Virus record (IMG/VR): IMGVR_UViG_3300005530_000039
Span: 1-45,552 of that record
Source of the DNA: a virus
Strand: one strand, 5' to 3'
Length of the DNA stretch: 45,552 bases
Each line of letters begins with the position of its first letter. Position 1 is the stretch's first letter. The notes under the pieces are model-generated. The model made no database searches. It was given only the letters and a program-made list of their open reading frames with translations, and was not told where the DNA came from. Positions 5,215 to 17,211 of the stretch are shown here, one piece after another. The translations under genes and the position numbers were made by a program.

Positions 5215-6125
5215 AATTCTTTGATCATCCAAATAAGTGGTTCATGGCTAAGTTCGATCGTTATGAGCCTATTATTCAAGATCATACGGCGATGAATATT
5301 GCCAAAACCTGTAAGAGAAAGTATTTTTACAGGATCGTATTAGGTTTTACCCCCCGCCAAGAAAAGTACCAAACTGTATTTGACTTTGGTACTGCCTACC
5401 ACAAGTTAAAAGAAGTTCTGCGTCGTACTGGTAATATTGGTGAGGCCATTCAGGCTGCTTCCCGATTACCAATTCTATCTCCAAGTCCCGTTAAAAAGTT
5501 TCATTATCTAACTAAGGCTGCCTTAATGAAGGCGGCTCATGTTGCTAATGAACAATGGGAAAAAGATCAAGAACAAAAGAAGATTAAATTAATTCCAGAC
5601 ATGATTGAACAGCCACTTAATGTTCAACTGCCTGATGGATCTTTTGTTGGTGGTAGATTAGATGCTGGTGTAGAATGGATGGGACAAATCTGGGATGAGG
5701 ATGATAAAACATCTTCTAAAGATGAAGAAGGATTTGCTTCCCAGAAAGCTGTAGATGATCAGACAACTCGATACATTTACATGCTTACCAAGCTTCATGG
5801 TGATGATATTGGTGGTATTATCTTCAATGTTCTTCATCATAACTATACTGAGAAGAATGGCTTAAAGATGTGGCTAAATAAAGTCACATTCCAACGTACA
5901 GATAGACAACTTAAAGAATGGGAAAGAGAGCAGATTCATTTCAATAAAGAGTTAGCTCTTGCTCGTGAGTCAGATATTTGGGTTAAAGAAGAACATAATT
6001 GTGCTTGGTGTCCATTCATGTGGGTATGCAAGCAATCAAATGAAGCTGCACAAATGGCTAAGTTAGAATCTGATTTCAAATTACAGCCCTGGGATTTTGA
6101 GAAGGTTGAGCAGGGGGGAGAATGA
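5211..6125 (+). CDS. Cas4/RecB-like PD-(D/E)XK nuclease
   Basis: Nuclease of the PD-(D/E)XK superfamily, Cas4/RecB-like branch. Visible motifs are the conserved His in GTAYHKL (about 64), the GGRLDAG Asp (151), the DDKTS segment (164-168) supplying the Asp-x-Lys pair, and a downstream Gln/Tyr helix (DDQTTRYIYML). Four cysteines (C34, C264, C267, C273; the last three in CAWCPFMWVC) have the spacing of the 4Fe-4S cluster in Cas4 and AddB-type exonucleases. With the Sak4-like ATPase and putative ssDNA-binding protein downstream it probably resects double-strand ends for phage recombination. No other cas gene or array is present, so a CRISPR role is unlikely. Confidence 0.85.
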   Translation: MKFFDHPNKWFMAKFDRYEPIIQDHTAMNIAKTCKRKYFYRIVLGFTPRQEKYQTVFDFGTAYHKLKEVLRRTGNIGEAIQAASRLPILSPSPVKKFHYLTKAALMKAAHVANEQWEKDQEQKKIKLIPDMIEQPLNVQLPDGSFVGGRLDAGVEWMGQIWDEDDKTSSKDEEGFASQKAVDDQTTRYIYMLTKLHGDDIGGIIFNVLHHNYTEKNGLKMWLNKVTFQRTDRQLKEWEREQIHFNKELALARESDIWVKEEHNCAWCPFMWVCKQSNEAAQMAKLESDFKLQPWDFEKVEQGGE

Positions 6126-6304
6126 GTAACTTCGATAAAGAATTAGAAGATAAGTTATTAGCAATTGGTTGTTTTCCAGATTGGGTTGATACAGATTTTG
6201 CTGGAGGTTTAGGAATGGAATTTTCGATAGCGTGGAATAAAGTTCCTGAATTTTGTAGAATACTTAAGGAATTTTATCATACTAGGATAGAGAATAAAAA
6301 ATGA
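6122..6304 (+). CDS. hypothetical protein (60 aa)
   Basis: Small acidic/aromatic protein (FDKELEDKLLAIGCFPDWVDTDF) between recombination genes. It is coupled to the nuclease by ATGA after a GGGGGAG ribosome-binding site. Its stop overlaps the next start. No family recognised. Confidence 0.6.
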   Translation: MSNFDKELEDKLLAIGCFPDWVDTDFAGGLGMEFSIAWNKVPEFCRILKEFYHTRIENKK

Positions 6305-6504
6305 AAATAAACATTGAATTTGATGAAGATGAATTAACTAGATTGATTATTAATAAACTAGAAGATATCTTAAATGTAACTCTAACTCCCGAAGATATTA
6401 AAATTGAAGTTAAATCTACACAGAATTATAGATCAGAGTGGGAGAAAGCTAAGTTTAGAGCTAGAGTAATTAAAGGTGGAGAAATAAATGATCCACTTAA
6501 GTGA
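6301..6504 (+). CDS. hypothetical protein (67 aa)
   Basis: Small protein starting by an ATGA overlap. It begins with KINIEFDEDELTRLIINKL, a strand-helix pattern common to short phage proteins whose ending here is rich in R and K. No family recognised. Confidence 0.55.
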   Translation: MKINIEFDEDELTRLIINKLEDILNVTLTPEDIKIEVKSTQNYRSEWEKAKFRARVIKGGEINDPLK

Positions 6505-6670
6505 AAAACCAAAATGTCCTTGTGGTTCGCTTAGGCCACAGGAAAGTGATTATCTAACTAAAGCCAGATACTTAGAAAAATTAAGAGAATGGAAGATGAT
6601 TCATCATATTCATCTTTATAGTATCCCACGAGAGAAGTTAATGGAGTTAATAAATGACCCGTCTAAATGA
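6488..6670 (+). CDS. small protein with a CPCG motif (60 aa)
   Basis: Starts inside the preceding gene after AGGTGGAG. It holds one CPCG knuckle near residue 10 and then two helices with several histidines (MIHHIHLY). Only two cysteines are present, so a full zinc ribbon is absent unless the histidines take part. Overlaps the next gene by 17 nt. Confidence 0.55.
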   Translation: MIHLSEKPKCPCGSLRPQESDYLTKARYLEKLREWKMIHHIHLYSIPREKLMELINDPSK

Positions 6671-7526
6671 AGTTCCAACTGGAGAATCTATTACAGGATG
6701 TTTTTATGGTGGTGCAGGTAAAGGTAAGACATGGTGTATGGGTACAGCAGGAGATAGAACTTTATATTGTGATGTAGAGAATCGTTTAGCTACAATACAA
6801 TCTAAAGCATTTCAATCTAAGTTCAAGTTCAATCCACTTCTAATTCAAGTATCAGAAGAACCAATTCCAGATGGTGGAGCTAAAGCATTAGCGGAATTAA
6901 CTAGACTTATTAAGCAGAATATTAAAGAGCATTCAACAGAATTTGATATCATAGAAGTTGATGGTGCGTCAGCATTGCGTAGATTTGCTAGAAATATGGG
7001 ACTAGAGTTAAATGGTAAAACGGGTAAATCTAAATCGTTAGTTGACGCTCAAGTAGAAGGTGGTAAGATAGCAGCAATTGTAGATGGATTTCCGTATGCA
7101 GATATTACAAGACAGGATTTTGGTATTGAAATGGATCTTATTGAGAGATTCATTTACAGTATGAAAGAGTATTGTGCAGATGCAAAGAAGCATTTCTTTC
7201 TCACAGCACACGAAAGAGTTGAGTATCCACCGCCATCAAAGGAGAATCCTAGCCCAGAACCAAAATCAATTAGACCGGGATTCACCGGACAAACATTTCC
7301 AGATACAATTCCTGGCATGTTTGATTTAGTGTGGAGATTTGAATCAATTGGTGCAGCAGAACAGACACAGTTTTATGCTAGGACAATCGGTGATGAATCT
7401 AACTTTGGTGTAACAAGTGTAGGAACTAAGATAGTATCAAAGACTTGTTATCCAGGTGTATTCAAAGCCAAAGAGTATAATCCTAATATACTTGATATCA
7501 TTAAACGAATTAAGGAGAGTAGATAA
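6654..7526 (+). CDS. Sak4-like RecA-fold ATPase, single-strand annealing
   Basis: P-loop ATPase of the Sak4/RecA-like phage type. Walker A is GGAGKGKT (residues 19-26) and Walker B ends in FDIIEVDG (97-104). A later strand, HFFLTAHE (about 181-188), holds the polar sensor position. The length of 290 residues is typical for Sak4-like proteins, which bind ssDNA and promote annealing. A Cas4-like nuclease lies upstream and a putative ssDNA-binding protein downstream, the usual recombination module. An alternative is a generic phage NTP-binding protein. Confidence 0.8.
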   Translation: MTRLNEVPTGESITGCFYGGAGKGKTWCMGTAGDRTLYCDVENRLATIQSKAFQSKFKFNPLLIQVSEEPIPDGGAKALAELTRLIKQNIKEHSTEFDIIEVDGASALRRFARNMGLELNGKTGKSKSLVDAQVEGGKIAAIVDGFPYADITRQDFGIEMDLIERFIYSMKEYCADAKKHFFLTAHERVEYPPPSKENPSPEPKSIRPGFTGQTFPDTIPGMFDLVWRFESIGAAEQTQFYARTIGDESNFGVTSVGTKIVSKTCYPGVFKAKEYNPNILDIIKRIKESR

Positions 7527-7742
7527 ATGCCTAAAGGCAAATATAATCGAAAGCCGAAGAAGATTGATGTCCCAAAAGTTGAACCACCTAATACAAATAT
7601 TGTTGAAGGATATAGTCCAGGTGGTGTAAAACTAGTTGAATCAACATATCGTCCACGAATGATGGTATTATGTATCTCAAAGCGATATTATTCTGATGGT
7701 TCTGTGGACGAAAGTGTAGAAACATATAACACTCATAGATAA
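7527..7742 (+). CDS. hypothetical protein (71 aa)
   Basis: Directly abuts the Sak4-like gene. It has a basic, proline-rich N-terminus (PKGKYNRKPKKIDVPKVEPP) and a short beta-rich C-terminus (MMVLCISKRYYSDGSV). No family recognised. The stop shares TAATG with the Tad2-like gene that follows. Confidence 0.55.
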   Translation: MPKGKYNRKPKKIDVPKVEPPNTNIVEGYSPGGVKLVESTYRPRMMVLCISKRYYSDGSVDESVETYNTHR

Positions 7743-7954
7743 TGAACTTCTCAGATGCATTAAAGGAAATCAAATCGGGTCAAGATTTGAGACGTAAAGG
7801 ATGGAATGGTAAGGGTATGAATGTTCATTATAGAGCCAGTAAAATACAAGGCGAATTACCATATCTTGAAATGACCACAGTTCAAGGAACATTAGTTCCT
7901 TGGTTAGCTTCACAAACTGATATTCTTGCTGAAGATTGGGAGTTTGCAACATGA
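7742..7954 (+). CDS. tad2: DUF2829 / Tad2-like anti-Thoeris protein
   Basis: A 70-residue protein with the DUF2829 signature from end to end. It has an opening helix (FSDALKEIKSG), WNGKGM (21-26), PYLEM (40-44), VPWLASQTD (52-60) and LAEDWE (62-67). DUF2829 is the family of Tad2, which forms oligomers that sequester the cyclic ADP-ribose-type signal of Thoeris defence and thereby stop ThsA activation (established for tested members, such as that of phage SPO1). Activity here is inferred from the family. It is coupled by TAATG to the gene before and ATGA to the Acb2/Tad1-like gene after. Confidence 0.88.
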   Translation: MNFSDALKEIKSGQDLRRKGWNGKGMNVHYRASKIQGELPYLEMTTVQGTLVPWLASQTDILAEDWEFAT

Positions 7955-8163
7955 TAACACCAGAAATTGATAAACTATTTACATATCATGATCCGACAGA
8001 AGCAAGTATCATATATTTAAAAAATGTAAGAGAATCAGCTAAGTCTTTAGCAAATGTAATTAATGAAAACATTCCAGAATGTGCAGATAAGTCAGCAGCA
8101 ATTCGTAAGCTTCGTGAATGTGTAATGACGGCTAATACGGCTATTCTTCTTAATCAATCTTAA
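7951..8163 (+). CDS. Acb2/Tad1 hairpin-domain protein, likely cyclic-nucleotide sponge
   Basis: A 70-residue helical-hairpin protein matching the phage family now named for the Acb2/Tad1 hairpin domain. It has FTYHDPT (10-16), a first helix (IYLKNVRESAKSLANVI), the CADKSAAIRKLRE segment (44-56) and a closing helix MTANTAILL. Characterised members bind cyclic di- and trinucleotides (Acb2, anti-CBASS) or ADP-ribose signals (Tad1, anti-Thoeris). The short length fits Acb2-type better than full Tad1, but the ligand cannot be read from sequence. Start 7951 is chosen for GGGAG 9 nt upstream and the ATGA overlap. The neighbouring tad2 suggests a two-gene anti-defence unit. Confidence 0.75.
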   Translation: MITPEIDKLFTYHDPTEASIIYLKNVRESAKSLANVINENIPECADKSAAIRKLRECVMTANTAILLNQS

Positions 8164-8174
8164 CTAATCCTCAA

Positions 8175-8642
8175 ATGCCAAAGTTTGATTTCAATCCAGC
8201 CGATGCAGTTTCTGGTATTCCTGTATACCCGAAGGATTCATATGAAGTTGAATTGGGTGAGCCAGTTTCTTTCTATCGTGCAGGTAAAGATGGAAAGGCA
8301 GATAATTATGGTGTGATGTTCAAGTCCAAGATTCGTGATGGTAAGTTTGCTGGCAAGCCGACGATTATTAATTGTTACATGCACAATGAAGATTCACTCG
8401 GATTTACGAAGTCAGTTCAGATGGCTGCACTTGGATATACTCCTCGTAAGTCTGGTGAGGATGAAAGATTTAATGCAGATCATGGTACAGATGGTTGGGG
8501 AATTAATACTGACGATCGTACTTGTGATCAAGGTTGGCATAATATGAAGGGTCAGACATTAGTTTGGGATGCTGATACTAAGATTGATAAGAATGGTGAG
8601 CAGCAACAAGTTACTCTTGGTTATCGCCCTTTAGGTTCATAA
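8175..8642 (+). CDS. putative ssDNA-binding protein of the recombination module
   Basis: A 155-residue beta-rich protein. It opens with FDFNPADA and VYPKDSYEVELGEPVSF, then FKSKIRDGKFAGKPTIINCYM, a pattern like the DUF669-type phage ssDNA-binding proteins that accompany Sak4 ATPases. It ends in a strand pair (QVTLGYRPLGS) instead of the usual acidic tail of SSBs. Assignment rests on the pattern and on position behind nuclease and Sak4-like genes. If correct, it coats ssDNA for the annealing ATPase. Confidence 0.5.
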   Translation: MPKFDFNPADAVSGIPVYPKDSYEVELGEPVSFYRAGKDGKADNYGVMFKSKIRDGKFAGKPTIINCYMHNEDSLGFTKSVQMAALGYTPRKSGEDERFNADHGTDGWGINTDDRTCDQGWHNMKGQTLVWDADTKIDKNGEQQQVTLGYRPLGS

Positions 8643-8726
8643 TAGAACGAGATTTAGATAGAGCATTCTTTGAGTATCGTGAATATAGATTAAGATATTT
8701 AAAGAATGATATGAAGATAGAATAAA

Positions 8727-8882
8727 ATCATCTTAGGTAGTGTAGCCTCGCTCAAGATTAGTGAAGCTTACCAGCTAGAAATGAAAAAGTATCCCTATAT
8801 AAATCAGTATGGTCGCATGGGATGACCCATCTAGTATAGCAATGTGCTAATTGAGAGATAAAAAGCAGCTACCTAAGATGAT
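8727..8882 (+). ncRNA. candidate rod-like structured RNA closed by a 14-bp stem
   Basis: ATCATCTTAGGTAG (8727-8740) pairs perfectly with CTACCTAAGATGAT (8869-8882). Inside, CTCAA plus TTAG (8751-8761) pairs with CTAA plus TTGAG (8847-8855), continuing the helix after a bubble. Near the tip, GGTC and GACC can pair around 8812-8826. The result is a long hairpin with internal loops, broadly the outline of 6S-type RNAs. There is no convincing gene in 8643-8885, and a tRNA fragment starts 4 nt after the stem. It is probably processed from the same transcript. No known RNA family is claimed. Confidence 0.5.
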
Positions 8883-8885
8883 CTC

Positions 8886-8915
8886 GGACCCTTAGCTCAG
8901 TTGGTTAGAGCAGAA
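8886..8915 (+). pseudogene. 5' half of an interrupted tRNA gene
   Basis: GGACCCT (acceptor), TA, a D-arm GCTC-AGTTGGTTA-GAGC and then AGA match a tRNA exactly up to the start of the anticodon stem, where an HNH endonuclease gene begins. The matching acceptor strand AGGGTCC lies 477 nt away at 9392-9398. The anticodon arm is missing, so the amino acid identity is unknown and the gene is probably non-functional. Confidence 0.7.
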
Positions 8916-8916
8916 T

Positions 8917-9312
8917 ATGTTAGATAATCTTCTCTCCCTGTATCCTAATTATACAACTTGGTATGGTCCTACTTTTCATAAAAGTGAAGGTAGATATTAT
9001 ATCTATTTGTATAATAAGGATACAAAGAAGAGAACAACTATAGCTTACGCTAAAGCTATAATCCAATGTAAGCTTAATAGACTATTAAATAAGAATGAAG
9101 AAGTAGATCATATAGATAATAATAAAGTAAATGATACAGTAGAAAATCTACAAATTATAACTAAGTTAAATAATACAAGAAAAACAAGTTTAGACAAATA
9201 CGTAGAAGTTACATGTATGTATTGCAGTAGAAATTTTAATAAATTAAAAAGTAGAGTTAGTAATAAAGTATATTGCAGTAACTCTTGTAGATTTGCTGCT
9301 AAGCGCGTGTAA
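8917..9312 (+). CDS. HNH homing endonuclease inserted in a tRNA gene
   Basis: HNH nuclease of 131 residues. The core is EEVDHIDNNKVNDTVENLQ (about 61-79) with the catalytic DH pair at 64-65 and Asn at 68 and 78. A C-terminal zinc-finger-like module has C100, C103, C120 and C124. It starts 2 nt after the 5' half of a broken tRNA, and its stop lies inside the tRNA-Ile gene (9303-9375). Free-standing phage HNH genes often spread by homing. Here the insertion appears to have removed the anticodon arm of the host tRNA gene. Very AT-rich codon use agrees with recent acquisition or drift. Confidence 0.85.
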   Translation: MLDNLLSLYPNYTTWYGPTFHKSEGRYYIYLYNKDTKKRTTIAYAKAIIQCKLNRLLNKNEEVDHIDNNKVNDTVENLQIITKLNNTRKTSLDKYVEVTCMYCSRNFNKLKSRVSNKVYCSNSCRFAAKRV

Positions 9313-9375
9313 CTCAGCGGTTAGAGTATTCGCCTTATAAGCGAAGAGTCGAAGGTTCAACTCCTTCCACGCGCA
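9303..9375 (+). tRNA. tRNA-Ile (anticodon UAU)
   Basis: Complete cloverleaf. The acceptor pairs GCGCGTG with CACGCGC, the D-arm is ACTC/GAGT, the anticodon stem TTCGC/GCGAA holds loop CTTATAA (anticodon TAT), and the T-arm is GAAGG-TTCAACT-CCTTC, with discriminator A. It reads AUA, a codon frequent in this phage. The HNH stop codon lies in its acceptor stem, so the two genes share 10 nt. CCA is not encoded. Confidence 0.9.
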
Positions 9376-9943: not shown

Positions 9944-10025
9944 GCCGCCTTGGCGAAATTGGTAGACGCGAGGGACTTAAAATCCCTTTCTTAACAGAGT
10001 ATCGGTTCGAGTCCGATAGGTGGCA
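9944..10025 (+). tRNA. tRNA-Leu (anticodon UAA)
   Basis: Acceptor GCCGCCT pairs with AGGTGGC (one G-U), discriminator A. The anticodon stem AGGGA/TCCCT holds loop CTTAAAA (anticodon TAA). A long variable arm and the T-arm (TCGG-TTCGAGT-CCGA core) are typical of leucine tRNAs. It reads UUA/UUG, heavily used here. The next gene starts one base after its end, and CCA is not encoded. Confidence 0.92.
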
Positions 10026-10673: not shown

Positions 10674-10897
10674 GCCTAAATAATTATGATTATCATCTAA
10701 TGTTGCGGGCAGCAAATGTCAAAGCAACTATTCATGAATTAAATATGATTCCCAAATCAGATATGGACCCAGAAGAGAAACTGATATATAAAGTAATGAC
10801 AAATGAATTAGAGAAATTAGCCAATAAATTATGGCAAGATGGGATGGGTAGTACAAAGGGTGTTAATCGTTCACAACCTTTATTTGAAACTAAATGA
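10670..10897 (+). CDS. helical hypothetical protein (75 aa)
   Basis: Mostly alpha-helical (YHLMLRAANVKATIHELNM; EEKLIYKVMTNELEKLANKL). Linked to both neighbours by four-base ATGA overlaps, which supports a real operonic gene. No family recognised. Confidence 0.5.
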   Translation: MSLNNYDYHLMLRAANVKATIHELNMIPKSDMDPEEKLIYKVMTNELEKLANKLWQDGMGSTKGVNRSQPLFETK

Positions 10898-11481
10898 TCC
10901 ATCTAACAAGTAATAAGGTAGCAATAACTCCAATTTTAGATCCTGATAAGACACCAGGTGGATTATATATTCCTGATATTGCTAAAGAACGAGCAGACCA
11001 AGGAATAGTAAAGTATATCGGACCTAGAGTTAAGGATATTAAGATTGGAGATTATGTTTTATTTGGTGGATATGATGGTACGACAGTTCGCTTGGAAGGT
11101 GAAGGAACATTTATTCTTATCCGTGAACCATTTATTAAATGTATCTTAGATAGACCAGATACAGATATTAATGGATTGTATTTTAGGAGTAAGATTGATA
11201 AGGATGAGCAGGAAGAGATTCGTAGAGAAATATTAGATGCAATTAGAGTAGCTATTGAAACTAATAATGTTAGTGATGATATAATAGACTCAATATTAGA
11301 AATATATGCCAAACATGATCCATATTTCACAGCAACACATGAAATGGCTATAAATCTAGTAGCAGAAGCATGGAAGGATCATCCAGTTAGAATTACAACT
11401 AGAGCTAATGATCCTAAGAAAGGAGATAAGATTCATGATAGAGCAATGGTAGATCACATTATAGAAGAGGAAGATGAATAA
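10894..11481 (+). CDS. GroES-like co-chaperonin with C-terminal extension
   Basis: Residues 1-88 match the GroES (Cpn10) fold. They include ITPILDPDKTPGGLYIPD, where GGLYIP is the conserved turn, then GIVKYIGPRVKDIKIGDYVLFGGYDGTTVRL and the closing strand FILIREPFIKCIL. The mobile loop is shortened to DPDKTP. A further roughly 107 residues are helical and acidic and not part of GroES. Phage co-chaperonins, such as T4 gp31, partner host GroEL to fold capsid protein. The extension, set in an early operon, is unusual and may alter GroEL partnering or add another binding task. Confidence 0.8.
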   Translation: MIHLTSNKVAITPILDPDKTPGGLYIPDIAKERADQGIVKYIGPRVKDIKIGDYVLFGGYDGTTVRLEGEGTFILIREPFIKCILDRPDTDINGLYFRSKIDKDEQEEIRREILDAIRVAIETNNVSDDIIDSILEIYAKHDPYFTATHEMAINLVAEAWKDHPVRITTRANDPKKGDKIHDRAMVDHIIEEEDE

Positions 11482-11696
11482 TGACACAGTTCGTTGAGAT
11501 TCTACTTATAAATGGCAGAAAGATTGGAGTAAATATAGATAATATTTTAGAGTTTGCTCCACATCCACAAGAAATTGGAGTATGTAATATTATAGTTAAA
11601 GTACCATCAGGTGGTGTATATCCAGTCAAGATGCCATATAGTGATTTGAGAAAGTTATTTATTCCTCCTGGAAGTGATTTAAAGTTGATTAATTAA
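11481..11696 (+). CDS. hypothetical protein (71 aa)
   Basis: Small beta-rich protein (QFVEILLINGRKIGVNIDNIL, then GVCNIIVKVPSGGVYPVKM) with glycines at turns. Overlaps the GroES-like stop (TAATG) and is itself overlapped by the polymerase gene start (TAATGA). No family recognised. Confidence 0.55.
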   Translation: MTQFVEILLINGRKIGVNIDNILEFAPHPQEIGVCNIIVKVPSGGVYPVKMPYSDLRKLFIPPGSDLKLIN

Positions 11697-13384
11697 TGAC
11701 AGCATTAATATCTAATAGAAAGGTCCCGCCATCGGGACCAGAAGATGCTGAAATCCTAATAATAGGTGAAGCACCTGGATATGAAGAAGACAAAGAGCTT
11801 ATTCCATTTATTGGTGATGCTGGAAAGGAGCTTAATAGGGGATTGGCGGTTGCTGGATTTGACAGGAATAACATTCGTGTTACTAATGTGTGTAACTACC
11901 GTCCTAATAACAATAAGTTTGAGTTATTAGAGGATACTTGGCAACTTCAAGAAGGAATAAACGATGTCAAAGAATTCATCGAAACGCATAAATCTACACT
12001 TAAATTTGTCGTACTCTGCGGAGGGAAACCGCTCGAATACATCGGAAGAAAACACGGAATCGACAAGTGGCGATCTTCGGTCATCGAAGAATCTGGAGTT
12101 AAGTTCTTTTGTTCATATCATCCTTCCGCAATCATTCGAGATAGATCTTTATACAGTACGTTTACATTCGATTTTCGAAAACTTTACAGGTACGTTAAAG
12201 AGGGTTATAGAAAGCCCGAATATAGATTTAACATTAACCCAACTGGAACAGATCGTGAAGAAGCTCTCAGAGAGCTAGAAAGCCATGGACGATTATATAT
12301 TGACATTGAGAGTGTTAAAGGAACTACTCATATATTGTGTTGTGGCTTTGCTAGTTCTCCTACCGAAGCAACCGTATTTAGTAATAGTAATTTTGGTTTT
12401 CTCGATTTTGAATTCCACTCTAGCTTATCTAGAATTCTTGAGAATCCTAAAATTGAGAAGTTTTATCATAACGGATTTGGTTACGATATCGAAGTATTAA
12501 GATTGAATGGTATAAATGTACAGAATTATGTATATGATACAATGATTGGTGCTCATGTACTAGAACCTGAATTACCTTATAGTCTAGCTTATCTTACAAC
12601 TTTATACACAGATCAAGCTTATTATAAGGATAAAGGTAAGTCAGCAATTCCAGATGATGAAGAAAAAGGATGGAGTGAGAAAGTAGATAGACAAACATTG
12701 TACGAATATAATGCAACTGACTGTGTAGTCACAGCTAAGGTTGCTATTGAACAAATAAAAGAAATAAATGAGCGTAAACTCTGGAGAACATATAATTATA
12801 AAGCTTCTCTTATTCCCCTCGGACAAGAATTAAGTCGAAATGGATTAGAAGTATTTCAGGAACAAAGAGAGTTATTAAGAGAAGCAGTTAAACTAAAATG
12901 GAAATATTATCAGGAGATTCTTAATGGCATAGCAGGATTTAAAGTCAATGCCAAATCTCCAAAACATATGACTAAGTTACTCCTAGAGCAATTTGGTTTA
13001 CCTGAAAGACGAAATAGGAACGCTGGCATAACCTTCGATGAAGATGCTATCGTATCCTATTTTTCTTTTATACAGGCTAAGATAGATGAATCTAAAAGGG
13101 AAGCAACGATTGAACAATGGACATTGAGATTAGCTGCCTGTAAGTGTATTTTATTAATTAGGGGATTTAGACAGCTAATTTCTAACTATGTCAAAGTTAA
13201 GATATCATCTGATAATCGACTTAGATCTGTTTATAATTTATCGGCTGCAACTGAAACAGGTAGAGGATCTTCGCATAAATGGGTTGATGGAACTGGTCTT
13301 AATGCGCAGACATTTCCAAGAGAAAGACTTGAACTAGATGACTTTGAGGTTGAACTCTTAAAGAAAAAAGGATTTTTGTTATGA
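11696..13384 (+). CDS. uracil-DNA glycosylase / 3'-5' exonuclease / N-terminal part of DNA polymerase A
   Basis: First half of a split family A polymerase. Residues 1-170 are a UDG-superfamily domain: GEAPG (24-28), PFIGDAG (37-43), VTNVCNYRP (62-70) and YHPSA (141-145), the SPO1-polymerase type arrangement. Residues about 195-350 are a DnaQ-like exonuclease: Exo I D203/E205 in YIDIE, Exo II N259 and D264, and Exo III Y338 to D342. The rest is thumb/palm up to LSAATETGRGSSHKW and LNAQTFPRE, the family A segment just before motif A, plus an unrelated 19-residue tail. The remaining palm and fingers are encoded separately at 14647. The halves probably assemble as one enzyme. Confidence 0.88.
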   Translation: MTALISNRKVPPSGPEDAEILIIGEAPGYEEDKELIPFIGDAGKELNRGLAVAGFDRNNIRVTNVCNYRPNNNKFELLEDTWQLQEGINDVKEFIETHKSTLKFVVLCGGKPLEYIGRKHGIDKWRSSVIEESGVKFFCSYHPSAIIRDRSLYSTFTFDFRKLYRYVKEGYRKPEYRFNINPTGTDREEALRELESHGRLYIDIESVKGTTHILCCGFASSPTEATVFSNSNFGFLDFEFHSSLSRILENPKIEKFYHNGFGYDIEVLRLNGINVQNYVYDTMIGAHVLEPELPYSLAYLTTLYTDQAYYKDKGKSAIPDDEEKGWSEKVDRQTLYEYNATDCVVTAKVAIEQIKEINERKLWRTYNYKASLIPLGQELSRNGLEVFQEQRELLREAVKLKWKYYQEILNGIAGFKVNAKSPKHMTKLLLEQFGLPERRNRNAGITFDEDAIVSYFSFIQAKIDESKREATIEQWTLRLAACKCILLIRGFRQLISNYVKVKISSDNRLRSVYNLSAATETGRGSSHKWVDGTGLNAQTFPRERLELDDFEVELLKKKGFLL

Positions 13385-13698
13385 ATCGGGAAGTAATAGC
13401 AGTTGATTTCGATGGAACTATCTTTAATAGAGAAACTGGAGTATTATTTGTTGGTGCAGTGGAATTTCTTAGAACATTAAATACCCAGTATGATTTAGTA
13501 ATTTTCTCTGCAAGATGTTCTCAACTTAGTGGTAGATCTTTTATAATGGATGTACTAAGAAAGCATCAGTTAGTAGGTATTATCACAGAGGTTACAGATA
13601 GAAAGAAATTTGATTTCAAGTTAATAATAGATGATCGAGCTAGGTATTGTAATGGTAATCAACACTATGGCGAGATATTGGATAGTTTAAGACTATGA
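13381..13698 (+). CDS. HAD-family phosphatase/hydrolase
   Basis: Haloacid-dehalogenase hydrolase of 105 residues. Motif I is VDFDGT (nucleophile D9, general acid D11), motif II is the Ser in VIFSAR, and motif IV is IIDDRA (about 84-89). The small size, lacking a big cap, fits phage nucleotidase or nucleic-acid phosphatase types. It starts by ATGA overlap with the first polymerase half, as the first of five genes inserted between the halves. Confidence 0.8.
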   Translation: MNREVIAVDFDGTIFNRETGVLFVGAVEFLRTLNTQYDLVIFSARCSQLSGRSFIMDVLRKHQLVGIITEVTDRKKFDFKLIIDDRARYCNGNQHYGEILDSLRL

Positions 13699-13889
13699 TA
13701 GAAGAATATGTGAAGGAACTAGTAGAGAATACACCAGAGAAAGAGAATATAATGGTTACTATCTCTGTGACTAGACCTCTATTAGCTAGGATTAATAAGT
13801 TAAGAATACAACGTAAGATGAACAGAGAACCACAGTTTAAGTGTTTAGAAAGAATAGTCAAGTTCTATGAGGAGAATCATGGAACATGA
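13695..13889 (+). CDS. hypothetical protein, possible ribbon-helix-helix (64 aa)
   Basis: A strand-like ENIMVTISVT followed by RPLLARINKLRIQRKM and a last helix (ECLERIVKFYEEN-like) has the shape of a ribbon-helix-helix regulator. No diagnostic match is certain. Overlaps both neighbours by a few bases, inside the insertion between polymerase halves. Confidence 0.45.
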   Translation: MIEEYVKELVENTPEKENIMVTISVTRPLLARINKLRIQRKMNREPQFKCLERIVKFYEENHGT

Positions 13890-14046
13890 AATAACGTGGG
13901 AAGCAGTAAGCCCTAAAAAGATAATGGTTACTTGTAGTTGTGGTGAGAAATGGTCACATCCAATTGATGTAACATTCGATAAGATGAATGATATATTTAA
14001 GGCTCACGTTAAATATTATACACGAGTTAAACAAGAGACTTTATGA
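13879..14046 (+). CDS. small protein with CSCG motif (55 aa)
   Basis: Starts behind GGAG (AGGAGAATCATG) and encodes 55 residues with a CSCG knuckle (19-22) preceded by strand IMVTCS and followed by EKWSHPIDVTF. A partial zinc-ribbon look, but only one cysteine pair. Ends in ATGA overlap with the next gene. Confidence 0.55.
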   Translation: MEHEITWEAVSPKKIMVTCSCGEKWSHPIDVTFDKMNDIFKAHVKYYTRVKQETL

Positions 14047-14429
14047 AAACTAAGGATCAAGTCCAAGAAATATTTGGACAAATTTGGCAAGAAATAAATA
14101 AGCTAAGGGAAGCAGGTCAAAAGGAATATGCAGGTGGAGAAAATGCATTCGGTAATTTCGAGCGATTAGCAACAGAGCTAAATCTAACCCGTGAAAAGGT
14201 TCTTTGGGTATATTTTACTAAGCATTTAGATGGCATTAGAGCTTATCTAAATGGGCATGTATCTCAGAGGGAATCAATAGAAGGTAGAATTAATGATGCT
14301 ATTGTTTATCTTATGTTATTGAGATGTATGGTTCAGGATAGTAAAGAATCTTTATTATCTCCATCTCTATTACAAAATGATAATAGTTGGATAAATCGAA
14401 CTGGGAAGCTGAAGAATAAACTAAAATGA
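14043..14429 (+). CDS. MazG/Nmad1-like phage protein (128 aa)
   Basis: Helical protein with EYAGGENAFGNFERLATELNL, WVYFTKHLDGIRAYL and GRINDAIVYLMLLR. This arrangement (K-x-x-x-Y-x-x-G-x-x-N-A-x-x-N-F, then K-H, then D-x-x-x-Y-L) is typical of the DUF1599/nucleotide-modification-associated, MazG-like phage proteins. MazG relatives hydrolyse NTPs, but whether this one is catalytic cannot be told. Inserted between the polymerase halves, it is at least in nucleotide/replication context. Confidence 0.6.
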   Translation: MKTKDQVQEIFGQIWQEINKLREAGQKEYAGGENAFGNFERLATELNLTREKVLWVYFTKHLDGIRAYLNGHVSQRESIEGRINDAIVYLMLLRCMVQDSKESLLSPSLLQNDNSWINRTGKLKNKLK

Positions 14430-14650
14430 TCAAATCACTCCTTGAATCATATAGCTATACTCCATTCGAAATTAAAGATAAGATTAACGAGATTATTAAT
14501 ATAGTTAATCAGTTAGATAGTCAGAGTCCTGCCAAAAGAGTAATTGAATATGTTGTATTGATAGATTTACTCGGTGGTGCAGATAATATAAATAGAGCAT
14601 TACTAGCTAACTTACACATGAATAGTTATTTGGCTCGCGAAATAAAGTGA
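14426..14650 (+). CDS. helical hypothetical protein (74 aa)
   Basis: Alpha-helical protein (FEIKDKINEIINIVNQL; AKRVIEYVVLIDLLGG). No family recognised. Its stop overlaps the GTG start of the second polymerase half (GTGA), so translation of that half probably depends on it. Confidence 0.5.
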   Translation: MIKSLLESYSYTPFEIKDKINEIINIVNQLDSQSPAKRVIEYVVLIDLLGGADNINRALLANLHMNSYLAREIK

Positions 14651-15441
14651 AAATCCCAATCCGTTCAATGATCCACGCACCAAAGGATCATCTTCTATTA
14701 TCTTGTGATTTATCTCAAGCAGAAGCTTGGGTAGTAGCATATGCAGCTGATGAACCTAGAATGAAAGCTGCATTAAAGACAGGTAAGATTCACGAGACAA
14801 CAGCACAATTCTGTTTAGAATTACCTTCAATGGTAATGTCAGAGGAACAGAGATACGTCGGGAAGAAATGTAATCATGCCTTTAATTATAGAATGGGGCC
14901 TGAGCGATGCTGTGAGATCATCAATAAAGAAGGACTCATTACAGTCTCAAATAAACAAACAAAGAAGTTCCATAGTAAATACCTCGAACTATATCGTATC
15001 CAAGACTGGTGGAGAGAAATCGAAGAGAAGCTCAAATATGAGCGATCACTTCAAAACTATTATGGATTCAGAAGAAATTTCCATCAGGCGATTTCTCCTG
15101 AATTATTTAAAGAGGGGACCGCATTCATACCACAATCTACGATTGCAGACCACATGTATGGTAATATTCAACCTAACTTTCCAAGAAGTGGAGGACTACT
15201 TGAAGTCCATAAGCAAATCACTGGCCCTAGCAAGGGCGAATTCAAATTAGTTCATTCAGCACATGATAGCTGTATCATAGAATTTCCGAAGAGACACGAT
15301 GTTAAAGAATTATATTGTCGAGTTAAGAATCTTTTGGAAAGACCTATGATGATTAATGGAGAAGAATTCACAGTTCCTATGGATGGTAAGTATGGAGAGG
15401 TTTGGGAGGATGGAATGGAGAAAATAAAGAATGCTGCTTAA
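14647..15441 (+). CDS. C-terminal half of split DNA polymerase A (palm/fingers)
   Basis: Carries the catalytic core of a family A polymerase. Motif A is SCDLSQAE (D21, steric-gate-position E26). The O-helix (motif B) is RYVGKKCNHAFNY, with R69, K73 and Y81 aligning to Pol I R754, K758 and Y766. Motif C is SAHDSC (H206, D207). Two departures are visible by alignment with Pol I: the F762 position is His77, and the residue after the motif C Asp is Ser, not Glu. The gene begins with GTG, overlapping the previous stop. The first half of the enzyme ends at 13384, so the gap holds five unrelated genes. Neither half could polymerise alone. Confidence 0.88.
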   Translation: MKIPIRSMIHAPKDHLLLSCDLSQAEAWVVAYAADEPRMKAALKTGKIHETTAQFCLELPSMVMSEEQRYVGKKCNHAFNYRMGPERCCEIINKEGLITVSNKQTKKFHSKYLELYRIQDWWREIEEKLKYERSLQNYYGFRRNFHQAISPELFKEGTAFIPQSTIADHMYGNIQPNFPRSGGLLEVHKQITGPSKGEFKLVHSAHDSCIIEFPKRHDVKELYCRVKNLLERPMMINGEEFTVPMDGKYGEVWEDGMEKIKNAA

Positions 15442-15442
15442 C

Positions 15443-15582
15443 AACAGCGCTTTTCGGGTAATCGTTTGGGCTACCCTCCTGCCGGCCAGTACAAAACTCT
15501 ATCGGGCCACCTTTCTTAAGTTAAGCTCCTCTTGCGTGCTCGCTGCGCTCGCACACCCAACTCCTCGCGCCGGGCTGAGATT
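15443..15582 (-). repeat. GC-rich structured repeat element, copy 2 (antisense to its neighbours)
   Basis: Read on the minus strand, the 3' block is CGAAAAGCGCTGTT (15443-15456) and the inner block is GAGTTTTGTACTGGCCGGC (15481-15499). A hairpin-forming stretch (GTGCGAGC..GCGAGCAC) lies at about 15533-15555. GGGTA/TACCC pair within it. This copy points against the polymerase gene and lies head-to-head with copy 3, flanking a small gene. Function unknown. Confidence 0.65.
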
Positions 15583-15801
15583 ATGATAATGTTAATAATG
15601 AGAATCATATGTTATTTTAAAGGACATAAACCATATCCTTTATTTCTAGCTCGCGCAAGACGAAATCCTTGGTATCTAGCTAGATGCGAACGATGCCATA
15701 AATATGATGAATCATTTGAGATTAATTATATGCACTACGCGCCGCAAGAGGGCCAGCGAAGCGAAGCGGAGCTAGGCACGAAAGAAGCCGGCCCGAATTA
15801 G
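15583..15801 (+). CDS. small zinc-ribbon-like protein with a C-terminus run into the repeat (72 aa)
   Basis: From the ATG at 15583 (15598 is an alternative, giving MRIICYFKGHKP), the protein has C..GHKP and a CERCH knuckle, like many short phage zinc proteins. After about residue 52 (NYMHYAPQ) the sequence becomes GC-rich and matches repeat copy 3, so the last 20 residues look newly formed from repeat DNA. Flanked by head-to-head repeats, as if captured or invaded by the elements. Confidence 0.5.
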   Translation: MIMLIMRIICYFKGHKPYPLFLARARRNPWYLARCERCHKYDESFEINYMHYAPQEGQRSEAELGTKEAGPN

Positions 15802-15863
15802 ATTTTAGCCTCGCCGGACGGAGCCTTCATTACTTATTCACGAGAAGCGTAGTTCAGAAATCT
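15733..15863 (+). repeat. GC-rich structured repeat element, copy 3
   Basis: Contains GCGAAGCGGAGC (15762-15773), the short stem GGGCC (15750-15754)/GGCCC (15790-15794), the block GATTTTAGCC followed by TCGCCGG (15801-15817), and 3' CGAGAAGCGTAGTT (15841-15854). It ends 9 nt before the ATG at 15864, which has no Shine-Dalgarno. The 5' part overlaps the preceding reading frame. Confidence 0.72.
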
Positions 15864-16034
15864 ATGTCAATTTATCCAAGACCGAGTACTAATAGAACAT
15901 ACCTCAGAAAATATCAACGAGACGTTAAGCGACAAGAAAGAATAGCTAATTCAGATTATAAACTAATAGAAGATACTCGTAAAGCTAAAGCTGAAGCTAA
16001 ACGGAAACGAAAAAAGAATCGCAATGCCCTATGA
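15864..16034 (+). CDS. short basic helical protein (56 aa)
   Basis: A 56-residue, strongly basic protein (YLRKYQRDVKRQERIA; KAKAEAKRKRKKNRN), probably one long helix that binds nucleic acid. It starts directly behind repeat copy 3 without a Shine-Dalgarno, and its stop overlaps the start of the P-loop ATPase gene by 11 nt. The lysine/arginine tail may tether it to DNA or to the following protein (inference). Confidence 0.6.
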   Translation: MSIYPRPSTNRTYLRKYQRDVKRQERIANSDYKLIEDTRKAKAEAKRKRKKNRNAL

Positions 16035-17211
16035 GAGGAAATGCAAAAACTGGATTGCAACGTATAATGATTGGATATATGATAGATCCCAGTTAATGAC
16101 TAAGTTGATTGATTGGTCTGCGATATGGACATTAAATATGGCTCTTCGCAGAAAGGTAGCATTAACTAAACAATCAGCATTCTTAGGTAGTTGGGATTGT
16201 TATCCATTCACATATCTAATGGCCATAGGTCCATCAGGTGTAGGTAAGACTACAGCTATTAAATATTCATTTGATCTATTAGACCAAGTTCCAGCATTAG
16301 CAAAACCCCCTACCTTTGCAACAGTAGAGGGTTTGATTGATGCGATTATTAAATCAGATGACGCTTCTACAAATCTAGTGGTAGAAGAGTTTGGCGATTT
16401 GATGATGAAGGATCACTCAGGAAAAATCTACCAATTTCTAACTTCAGTATACGATGGAAAAGCAAATATTAGGCAGAGAACTCTATCCCGTGACATGGAG
16501 TTTGCAGATAAACCATGTGTTAATATGTTTGCTGGAACAACTCCTGAGTGGCTTGCTGATAATATTTCAGCTAATACTCTTAATGGTGGTTTTGGCTCTA
16601 GATGTATTTGGCTTCATGTTCCCGGATTAAGACGTAGAAGGATGTTCTATGAGAAGGAAATGAAGGAGAGAAATTATGGAGCTATAGAGAAAGATTTAGT
16701 AGCTGATCTTAATCATATAGCTAAGAATATTGAAGGTGAGTTTACGATTGAGAAAGAAGGTAGAGATTGGATGGAAGATTGGAATAGTAAATTAGAAAGT
16801 AAAATTAAGTATAAGAAAATAGCTGGTTACATAATGCGTAAACCAGTATTTGTATTAAAGGTAGCTATAGCATTCCATGTAGCATATTCAGATACACCAG
16901 AGTTATCTCTAGGTGATTTACAGAATGCCGAGAAGATGGTTACAGCTCTAGAAGATGATCTACCTAAGATATTTGAAGGTATAGGTAAGAATGAATACTC
17001 ATTAGAGATGAAAGAAATACTTAATGAGATTAAGGATCATCCCGGCATCGCTGAATCTGAATTGAGGGAGATGTTCAAATCTGCTGCTGGACCTGCTAAG
17101 TTATCAGAACTTATAGATGGATTACTTCTTGCCGATCTAGCTAAGTCAGAAATAGGTGAAGAGAATCGACGAATATTCTTTGCAGTAGAAATGAAGAATG
17201 GTAAGAAATAA
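16024..17211 (+). CDS. P-loop ATPase, primase/helicase-associated (DUF3987-like)
   Basis: A 395-residue ATPase. Walker A is GPSGVGKT (about 68-75) and Walker B is NLVVEEFGDLM (117-127). Sensor 1 is FAGTTPEWL (about 170-178), followed by NGGFGSRCIW and a basic stretch (GLRRRRM) that may act as the arginine finger. The layout resembles DUF3987-type replicative helicase or primase-associated ATPases without an attached primase. It ends the rightward replication block in front of a bidirectional terminator. Probable role: helicase loading or helicase in phage replication. Confidence 0.75.
   Translation: MPYERKCKNWIATYNDWIYDRSQLMTKLIDWSAIWTLNMALRRKVALTKQSAFLGSWDCYPFTYLMAIGPSGVGKTTAIKYSFDLLDQVPALAKPPTFATVEGLIDAIIKSDDASTNLVVEEFGDLMMKDHSGKIYQFLTSVYDGKANIRQRTLSRDMEFADKPCVNMFAGTTPEWLADNISANTLNGGFGSRCIWLHVPGLRRRRMFYEKEMKERNYGAIEKDLVADLNHIAKNIEGEFTIEKEGRDWMEDWNSKLESKIKYKKIAGYIMRKPVFVLKVAIAFHVAYSDTPELSLGDLQNAEKMVTALEDDLPKIFEGIGKNEYSLEMKEILNEIKDHPGIAESELREMFKSAAGPAKLSELIDGLLLADLAKSEIGEENRRIFFAVEMKNGKK

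Follow-up and report, generated by a model that had tools for sequence, protein, structure and literature searches.

The window analysed here is the whole 45,552-nucleotide (nt) stretch of IMG/VR virus record IMGVR_UViG_3300005530_000039, and all coordinates refer to its numbering. Between positions 11696 and 15441 of its plus strand, the sequence of a family A DNA polymerase (PolA) with an N-terminal uracil-DNA glycosylase (UDG) domain is distributed over two open reading frames (ORFs), with five further ORFs between them. Family A polymerases are textbook single-chain enzymes. The N half (562 residues; 11696..13384), assigned from Pfam, PHROG and a predicted structure, comprises the UDG domain (residues 11-155), a 3′-5′ exonuclease (residues 186-349), and the thumb and first palm segment (residues ∼395-541) followed by a 19-residue tail. 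Pfam yielded E values of 1.7e-18 for UDG and 7.2e-11 for DNA_pol_A_exo1, and a weak match to the beginning of DNA_pol_A (E 0.009, profile positions 8-124). The C half (264 residues; 14647..15441) carries motifs A, B and C, with the motif A aspartate encoded at 14707-14709, and matched DNA_pol_A over profile positions 140-379 (E 1.5e-18). The PF00476 domain is accordingly covered once by two separate ORFs, motifs A, B and C lying in the C half and the rest in the N half. The PHROG profile phrog_17 also spans both chains (positions 476-989 in the N half and 995-1235 in the C half). No further PolA or PolB was found elsewhere in the record.

These observations bear out the original prediction, made from the DNA sequence of the window, of a split UDG-exonuclease-PolA with five ORFs between its halves. 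It had also described the N-terminal UDG domain as the arrangement seen in SPO1-type phages; the SPO1-type phage Goe9 indeed matches the first 363 residues of the N half. The UDG domain scores above the Pfam cut-off and its model matches family 4 UDG structures, the NCBIfam UDG_fam4 match is below cut-off (88.5 v 125.3), and glycosylase activity is predicted. As was likewise proposed, the C half opens with KIPIRSM before motif A and starts from a GTG that overlaps the stop of the last inserted gene: the GTG lies in the string AAGTGA and shares bases with that stop (GTGA). No ribosome-binding site is evident upstream of it.

The gap between the halves measures 1,262 nt and is fully tiled by the five overlapping ORFs, so that the seven genes from 11696 to 15441 form one overlapping chain (overlaps of 4, 4, 11, 4, 4 and 4 nt), all on the plus strand. 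Inserted gene 1 (13381..13698, 105 residues) had been read as a HAD phosphatase; PHROG supports this (phrog_1238, E 4.8e-9; phrog_415, E 0.0011), but the Pfam match is below cut-off. The possible ribbon-helix-helix protein encoded by gene 2 (13695..13889, 64 residues) does match RHH_1, but at 18.7 bits falls just short of the cut-off of 20.5. Gene 3 (13879..14046) encodes a small CSCG protein of 55 residues from an ATG at 13879 preceded by GAGGAG; if the start at 13867 is used instead, the protein has 59 residues and the third overlap in the chain is 23 nt rather than 11. Gene 4 (14043..14429, 128 residues) had been called MazG/Nmad1-like, which neither Pfam nor NCBIfam confirmed; the protein belongs to phrog_6802, whose function is not known. 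Gene 5 (14426..14650) encodes a 74-residue protein, described earlier as helical. Neither it nor the CSCG protein has a family above cut-off, and no endonuclease family was found among the five ORFs in Pfam or PHROG.

We aligned the two halves to fused relatives in order to locate the break. The N half ends with LNAQTFPRE plus the 19-residue tail (13325..13381), and the C-half profile starts immediately ahead of motif A in the solved structures of Klenow and Taq. At the position of the break, fused relatives carry a linker of variable length that is often rich in glycine and acidic residues. The tail, which the original prediction had called foreign, is therefore present but need not be foreign, since fused relatives vary at the same place. 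A model of one fused relative (L034, 823 residues; L numbers denote individual relatives) had a mean predicted local distance difference test score (pLDDT) of 92.6 and matched Klenow with a template modelling score, normalised to the target, of ∼0.8; around its junction (residues 501-540) pLDDT was 86-92 in blocks. The N half of the window, modelled alone, had a mean pLDDT of 86.2, and the blocks at its end (residues 511-562) reached only 40-66, consistent with a palm segment dependent on its partner chain.

To survey relatives, IMG/VR was scanned with N-half patterns and, separately, with the C halves of split phages, and the best 80 of 207 and the best 80 of 341 loci were retained. In the first set, 11 of the 80 loci were split at this loop, 67 were fused, one was broken elsewhere and one was cut off. 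The second set, which is enriched for splits because of its queries, held 21 split and 57 fused loci, with two cut off. The classification covered 178 sequences in all, with 36 split, 135 fused, three broken elsewhere and four cut off or unmatched. Two of the 36 splits are a duplicate of the window (L004) and an SPO1-type intron phage (L015); after removal of these two and of the four cut-off or unmatched sequences, and after collapse at 97%, 131 representatives remained. Among them, 24 are split at the loop before motif A and 107 are not; three of the latter (L009, L016 and L082) are broken instead between exonuclease and polymerase. One of these, Caulobacter phage Kuura (L016), has two small ORFs in that gap. 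In L087, the fused polA ORF (5992-9252) is ∼270 residues longer than in its relatives and has a normal junction linker.

Named fused relatives are MW202489, Microcystis phage Mel-JY34 and a Desulfofustis phage. MW202489 and Mel-JY34 have the same domains as the window, but in one polypeptide; the gene after polA encodes DUF3987 in Mel-JY34 and is an unnamed ORF in MW202489. In the window, a DUF3987/primase-like gene (phrog_14296) lies at 16024..17211 on the plus strand, and it is the usual gene after polA in relatives: the window gene gave 98 matches among the ORFs of the 130 other representatives, and all 14 of the best of these 98 lie downstream of polA. The locus is therefore syntenic. Fused relatives had been proposed as the means of deciding the ancestral state and, since most relatives are fused with the same neighbours, the ancestor is supported as having been one fused gene. 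The window itself is distant from all of them. Single-protein scans of IMG/VR found no close relative of its N half and, for its C half, only one short match of 26 residues (L003); a DNA-level phage search found no close relative, and the highest identity to any relative is 30%.

The residues expected of a working enzyme are retained in the split representatives. Columns are named by Klenow residue numbers. The motif A and motif C aspartates and the motif B lysine and tyrosine are each present in 24/24 splits, as are the equivalents of the exonuclease residues Glu357, Tyr497 and Asp501. Those of Asp355 and Asp424 are each present in 23 (L046 differs at both), and the motif C histidine also in 23 (L018 differs); the window has the equivalents of D355, E357, D424, Y497 and D501. 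The motif B Arg754 column holds arginine in 8/24 splits, the window included, and tyrosine in 16/24; in the 107 other representatives it holds arginine in 58, tyrosine in 46 and asparagine in three. PF00476 gave two part matches in 13 of the 14 split records that were searched whole, and one in L018. Both halves are under purifying selection in the 11 pairs of split relatives compared: the ratio of the proportions of nonsynonymous and synonymous differences, pN/pS, was 0.11-0.30 in both halves of all 11 pairs, and the corresponding rate ratio, dN/dS, which is rough because dS was saturated in several of them, was 0.05-0.16 where finite. From these sequence data, the halves are very likely functional. 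The equivalent of Klenow Phe762 in motif B is histidine in 24/24 splits and in 99 of the 107 other representatives. Residue types shown for this position are Tyr, Phe and Leu (PMC6302109), and a keyword search of PMC6302109 and PMC9069017 found no mention of histidine.

The junctions take several forms. Eight of the 24 splits have no gene between the halves: in L047, L123 and L170 these overlap as TAATG, in L129 and L145 stop and start are 1-2 nt apart, and in L157, L158 and L162 the overlap is longer than in the TAATG forms. L157, L162 and L158 share one common junction form, and L123 and L145 have a similar C-half start across different metagenomes. A sequencing error was rejected as the source of the split in the window, where it leaves 1,262 nt of tiled coding sequence unexplained and where other records are split likewise; for the eight relatives without a gap it is less surely excluded when each is taken singly. 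In the remaining 16 splits, ∼120 to 1,262 nt of differing content separate the halves. HNH endonuclease genes are found in the junctions of L022, L169 and L174, and HNH relatives directly follow polA in several fused phages (e.g. L147, L155 and L120). A pyrophosphatase-like gene occupies the gaps of L020 and L104, and in other relatives such genes are found upstream of polA as well. The gap of L022 also holds a helix-turn-helix gene with relatives in L035 and L100, and those of L006, L026, L046, L081 and L084 hold single small ORFs; some of the small gap ORFs that match no family may not be genes. L046 and L018, like MEP401 (see below), are broken nearer motif A than the other splits. The cargo differs in each split lineage, and the five genes of the window are the largest set in a range of zero to five. 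Relatives of inserted genes 1, 2, 3 and 5 were not found in the fetched loci. By contrast, phrog_6802 relatives occur in nine other representatives, all upstream of polA or against its start: within ∼400 nt in L041, L038, L176, L033, L134 and L002, and ∼1.7 kb upstream in L088, L077 and L082.

A quick maximum-likelihood tree (LG+G4) of the 131 representatives, calculated after removal of the junction columns, requires at least nine changes of the split label, seven of which are forced by well-supported branches. Fourteen split rows constitute one wholly split clade (support 100); the split is therefore stable while the gap cargo changes. Elsewhere on the tree, the split L145 and L123 adjoin the fused L147 and L122. 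Constrained groupings, chosen after the larger tree had been seen, were evaluated on 39 rows by the approximately unbiased (AU) test. A single origin, with all 19 splits of that tree held together, was rejected (p-AU 7e-26), as were two further constraints, one joining the window to nine rows of the split clade (p-AU 1e-8), the other adding the splits L129, L123 and L145 to that clade (p-AU 4e-6). Branches in these quick trees are long (1.68 for the window), so the exact placement of the window is unsure. Some of the state changes may represent re-fusion or recombination. The loop before motif A thus appears to be a recurrent breakpoint, within an enzyme that is probably indispensable to the virus.

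We propose that the window encodes a two-chain family A polymerase descended from a fused ancestor, that fission at this loop has recurred in the phage group, and that the resulting gaps were filled by other genes; to this explanation as a whole we assign a probability of roughly 0.84. Chain 1 would contribute the UDG-like domain, the 3′-5′ exonuclease, the thumb and the first palm segment, and chain 2 motif A, the fingers with motif B, and motif C. Since the loop that holds the break, between NxQNxP and motif A, is variable by nature, the chains could fold separately, pair across the palm and rebuild the active site. As start and stop overlap and no ribosome-binding site is evident, chain 2 would be translated by reinitiation at the GTG. 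The repeated state changes on the tree point to recurrent fission. That the gaps are filled by homing endonucleases and by genes from the phages' own replication neighbourhood is partly shown, because HNH genes lie in three gaps and phrog_6802 and pyrophosphatase genes lie upstream of polA elsewhere. It is very probable that the two chains come together as a functional polymerase: assembly in trans is strongly implied by the catalytic residues in both halves, the purifying selection in split relatives and the absence of another PolA or PolB. Several points weigh against this proposal. As the window has no close relative, selection on its own halves is not measurable; the pLDDT contrast at the junction is between two different proteins and may reflect alignment depth; and no motif reveals how the halves would bind each other.

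Splicing could in principle restore one polymerase if the insert were a group I, group II or trans-splicing intron with several ORFs. This idea draws on SPO1-type phages, in which the same gene is interrupted ∼10 residues upstream of the site by DNA bearing I-HmuI and matching a group I intron, and on the intron that the authors of MEP401 proposed for their split (PMC10580990). We consider it very improbable for the window, where Rfam, applied at gathering score and with a relaxed E value, revealed no intron: there was no match at E up to 10 over 13250-14750 and none to an intron (RF00028) over 11600-15900. The intron model is weak, missing the SPO1-type intron at gathering score, but in the same Rfam mode that intron served as a positive control and gave E 0.0013. 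Moreover, the gap is wholly tiled by overlapping ORFs, and an intron could not fit into the eight split relatives in which stop and start overlap or are separated by just 1-2 nt. Joining after translation by a split intein is the least credible route of all. An N-intein starts with Cys or Ser, and a C-intein precedes the C extein; neither residue stands at the start of the tail, the C half opens directly with polymerase sequence, and there is no space for intein blocks, even though a split intein has been reported in the split PolB of phage MIJ3 (PMC6892783). With no intron and no intein seen, assembly in trans is the most plausible route to one active site. Alternatively, the gene might simply be broken, its halves decaying while the phage relies on the host polymerase. 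The divergence of the window halves, for which selection lacks a close comparison, leaves this a small chance; against it stand the intact catalytic residues, the two open frames, the coupled start, the purifying selection in other split lineages and a whole clade that is stably split.

Two further possibilities concern the origin and the use of a two-chain enzyme. The split could have arisen by tandem duplication of the polA neighbourhood followed by complementary loss, and not by gene insertion. The position of phrog_6802, found in the gap here and, in relatives, shortly before an intact polA (no more than ∼400 nt away in six of nine), and that of the pyrophosphatase genes of L020 and L104 would agree with such an origin. 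We nevertheless regard it as unlikely, albeit worth keeping in mind, as no remnant of a duplicate is present, a relative upstream of polA was found for just one of the five inserted genes, and the HNH genes in three gaps favour insertion. It is rather more doubtful that the N half acts mainly alone as a UDG-exonuclease, with polymerase formed only when the coupled chain is fully read, so that the split sets enzyme dosage. The single overlapping chain of seven genes, in which the C half comes last from a GTG without an evident ribosome-binding site, would suit this arrangement, but relatives without inserted genes are also split and gap length is thus not under obvious control. Freeing the UDG-exonuclease chain from polymerase dosage may still be a way in which the split is useful. 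Returning to the two-chain polymerase, we tentatively suggest, at somewhat less than even odds, that the loop is a recurrent site of fission and gene capture, opened by homing endonucleases, where the two-chain enzyme is stable for long periods and the gap acts as a slot for gene exchange. It is equally tentative that the endonucleases would thereby aim at the most conserved part of polA.

Comparable arrangements are known. Vibrio phage VS-ABTNL-3 (PVS_29, 28, 27) also has a polymerase of this family in two parts, broken at the same loop as in the window and with a coupled ORF between the halves, but its gap holds one unrelated 184-residue gene instead of five. In the Methylophilales phages MEP401 and MEP402 and most of their group, the family A polymerase is split into two ORFs (PMC10580990); as in the window, the break precedes motif A, but with one 77-residue ORF between. 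The N part of MEP401 ends ...NLQNFDGEIKTLFLSRYGE, nearer motif A than that of the window, and the available portion of PMC10580990 describes an exonuclease and does not mention a UDG domain, which the window has. In the MEP401 sequence (OP830906, L178; 6111-8221) the split lies directly before motif A and the ORFs are nearly adjacent, a layout equally compatible with a two-chain enzyme and with the intron suggested by the authors. Okubovirus phages of the SPO1 type, such as Goe9, share the domain order UDG-exonuclease-PolA and are interrupted within ∼10 residues of the site, but by intron DNA with I-HmuI, whereas the window gap has no intron match. In Aeromonas phages 25 and 44RR the replicative polymerase is likewise encoded by two genes (split gene 43), and in phage 25 its two parts, 43A and 43B, purify together and show polymerase activity (PMC2988022). 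That enzyme is of family B, and its halves are separated by one endonuclease (a homing endonuclease in phage 25) or an untranslated spacer as opposed to five genes. Similarly, the freestanding HNH endonuclease mobE splits the conserved nrdA gene of Aeh1 and the enzyme still works (PMC2988022), but this is a ribonucleotide reductase with a single insert. The view that a trans-assembled PolA with a UDG domain is unusual thus needs qualifying, given the 24 split representatives and the published MEP401 polymerase. A search of the open-licence literature, where most subscription journals are missing, found no split family A polymerase other than that of MEP401; within that literature, the UDG-exonuclease-polymerase version, the five-gene gap and the recurrence of fission at a single loop, with cargo that varies, appear to be new.

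In the surroundings of the locus, genes for tRNA-Ile (tat; 9303-9375), tRNA-Leu (taa; 9944-10025) and a GroES-like co-chaperonin (10894-11481) lie upstream of polA. A G+C-rich island (15430-15870; ∼0.45 versus ∼0.34 around it) separates the C half from the DUF3987 gene, and no direct repeat family was found inside it. An aminoadenine system was considered and rejected: DpoZ matches were weak and far below cut-off, and the record contains no adenylosuccinate synthetase family.

Taken together, the relatives offer a natural series on one tree, with repeated changes of state, that leads from the fused gene, through a split whose coupled halves have nothing between them (TAATG), to junctions with one, two and five inserted genes. 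Gene fission in an enzyme that is likely to be essential is thereby opened to direct tests, and biochemists are provided with polymerases that already come as two chains. The series also carries a warning for annotation, as half polymerases with other genes between them can be one enzyme.

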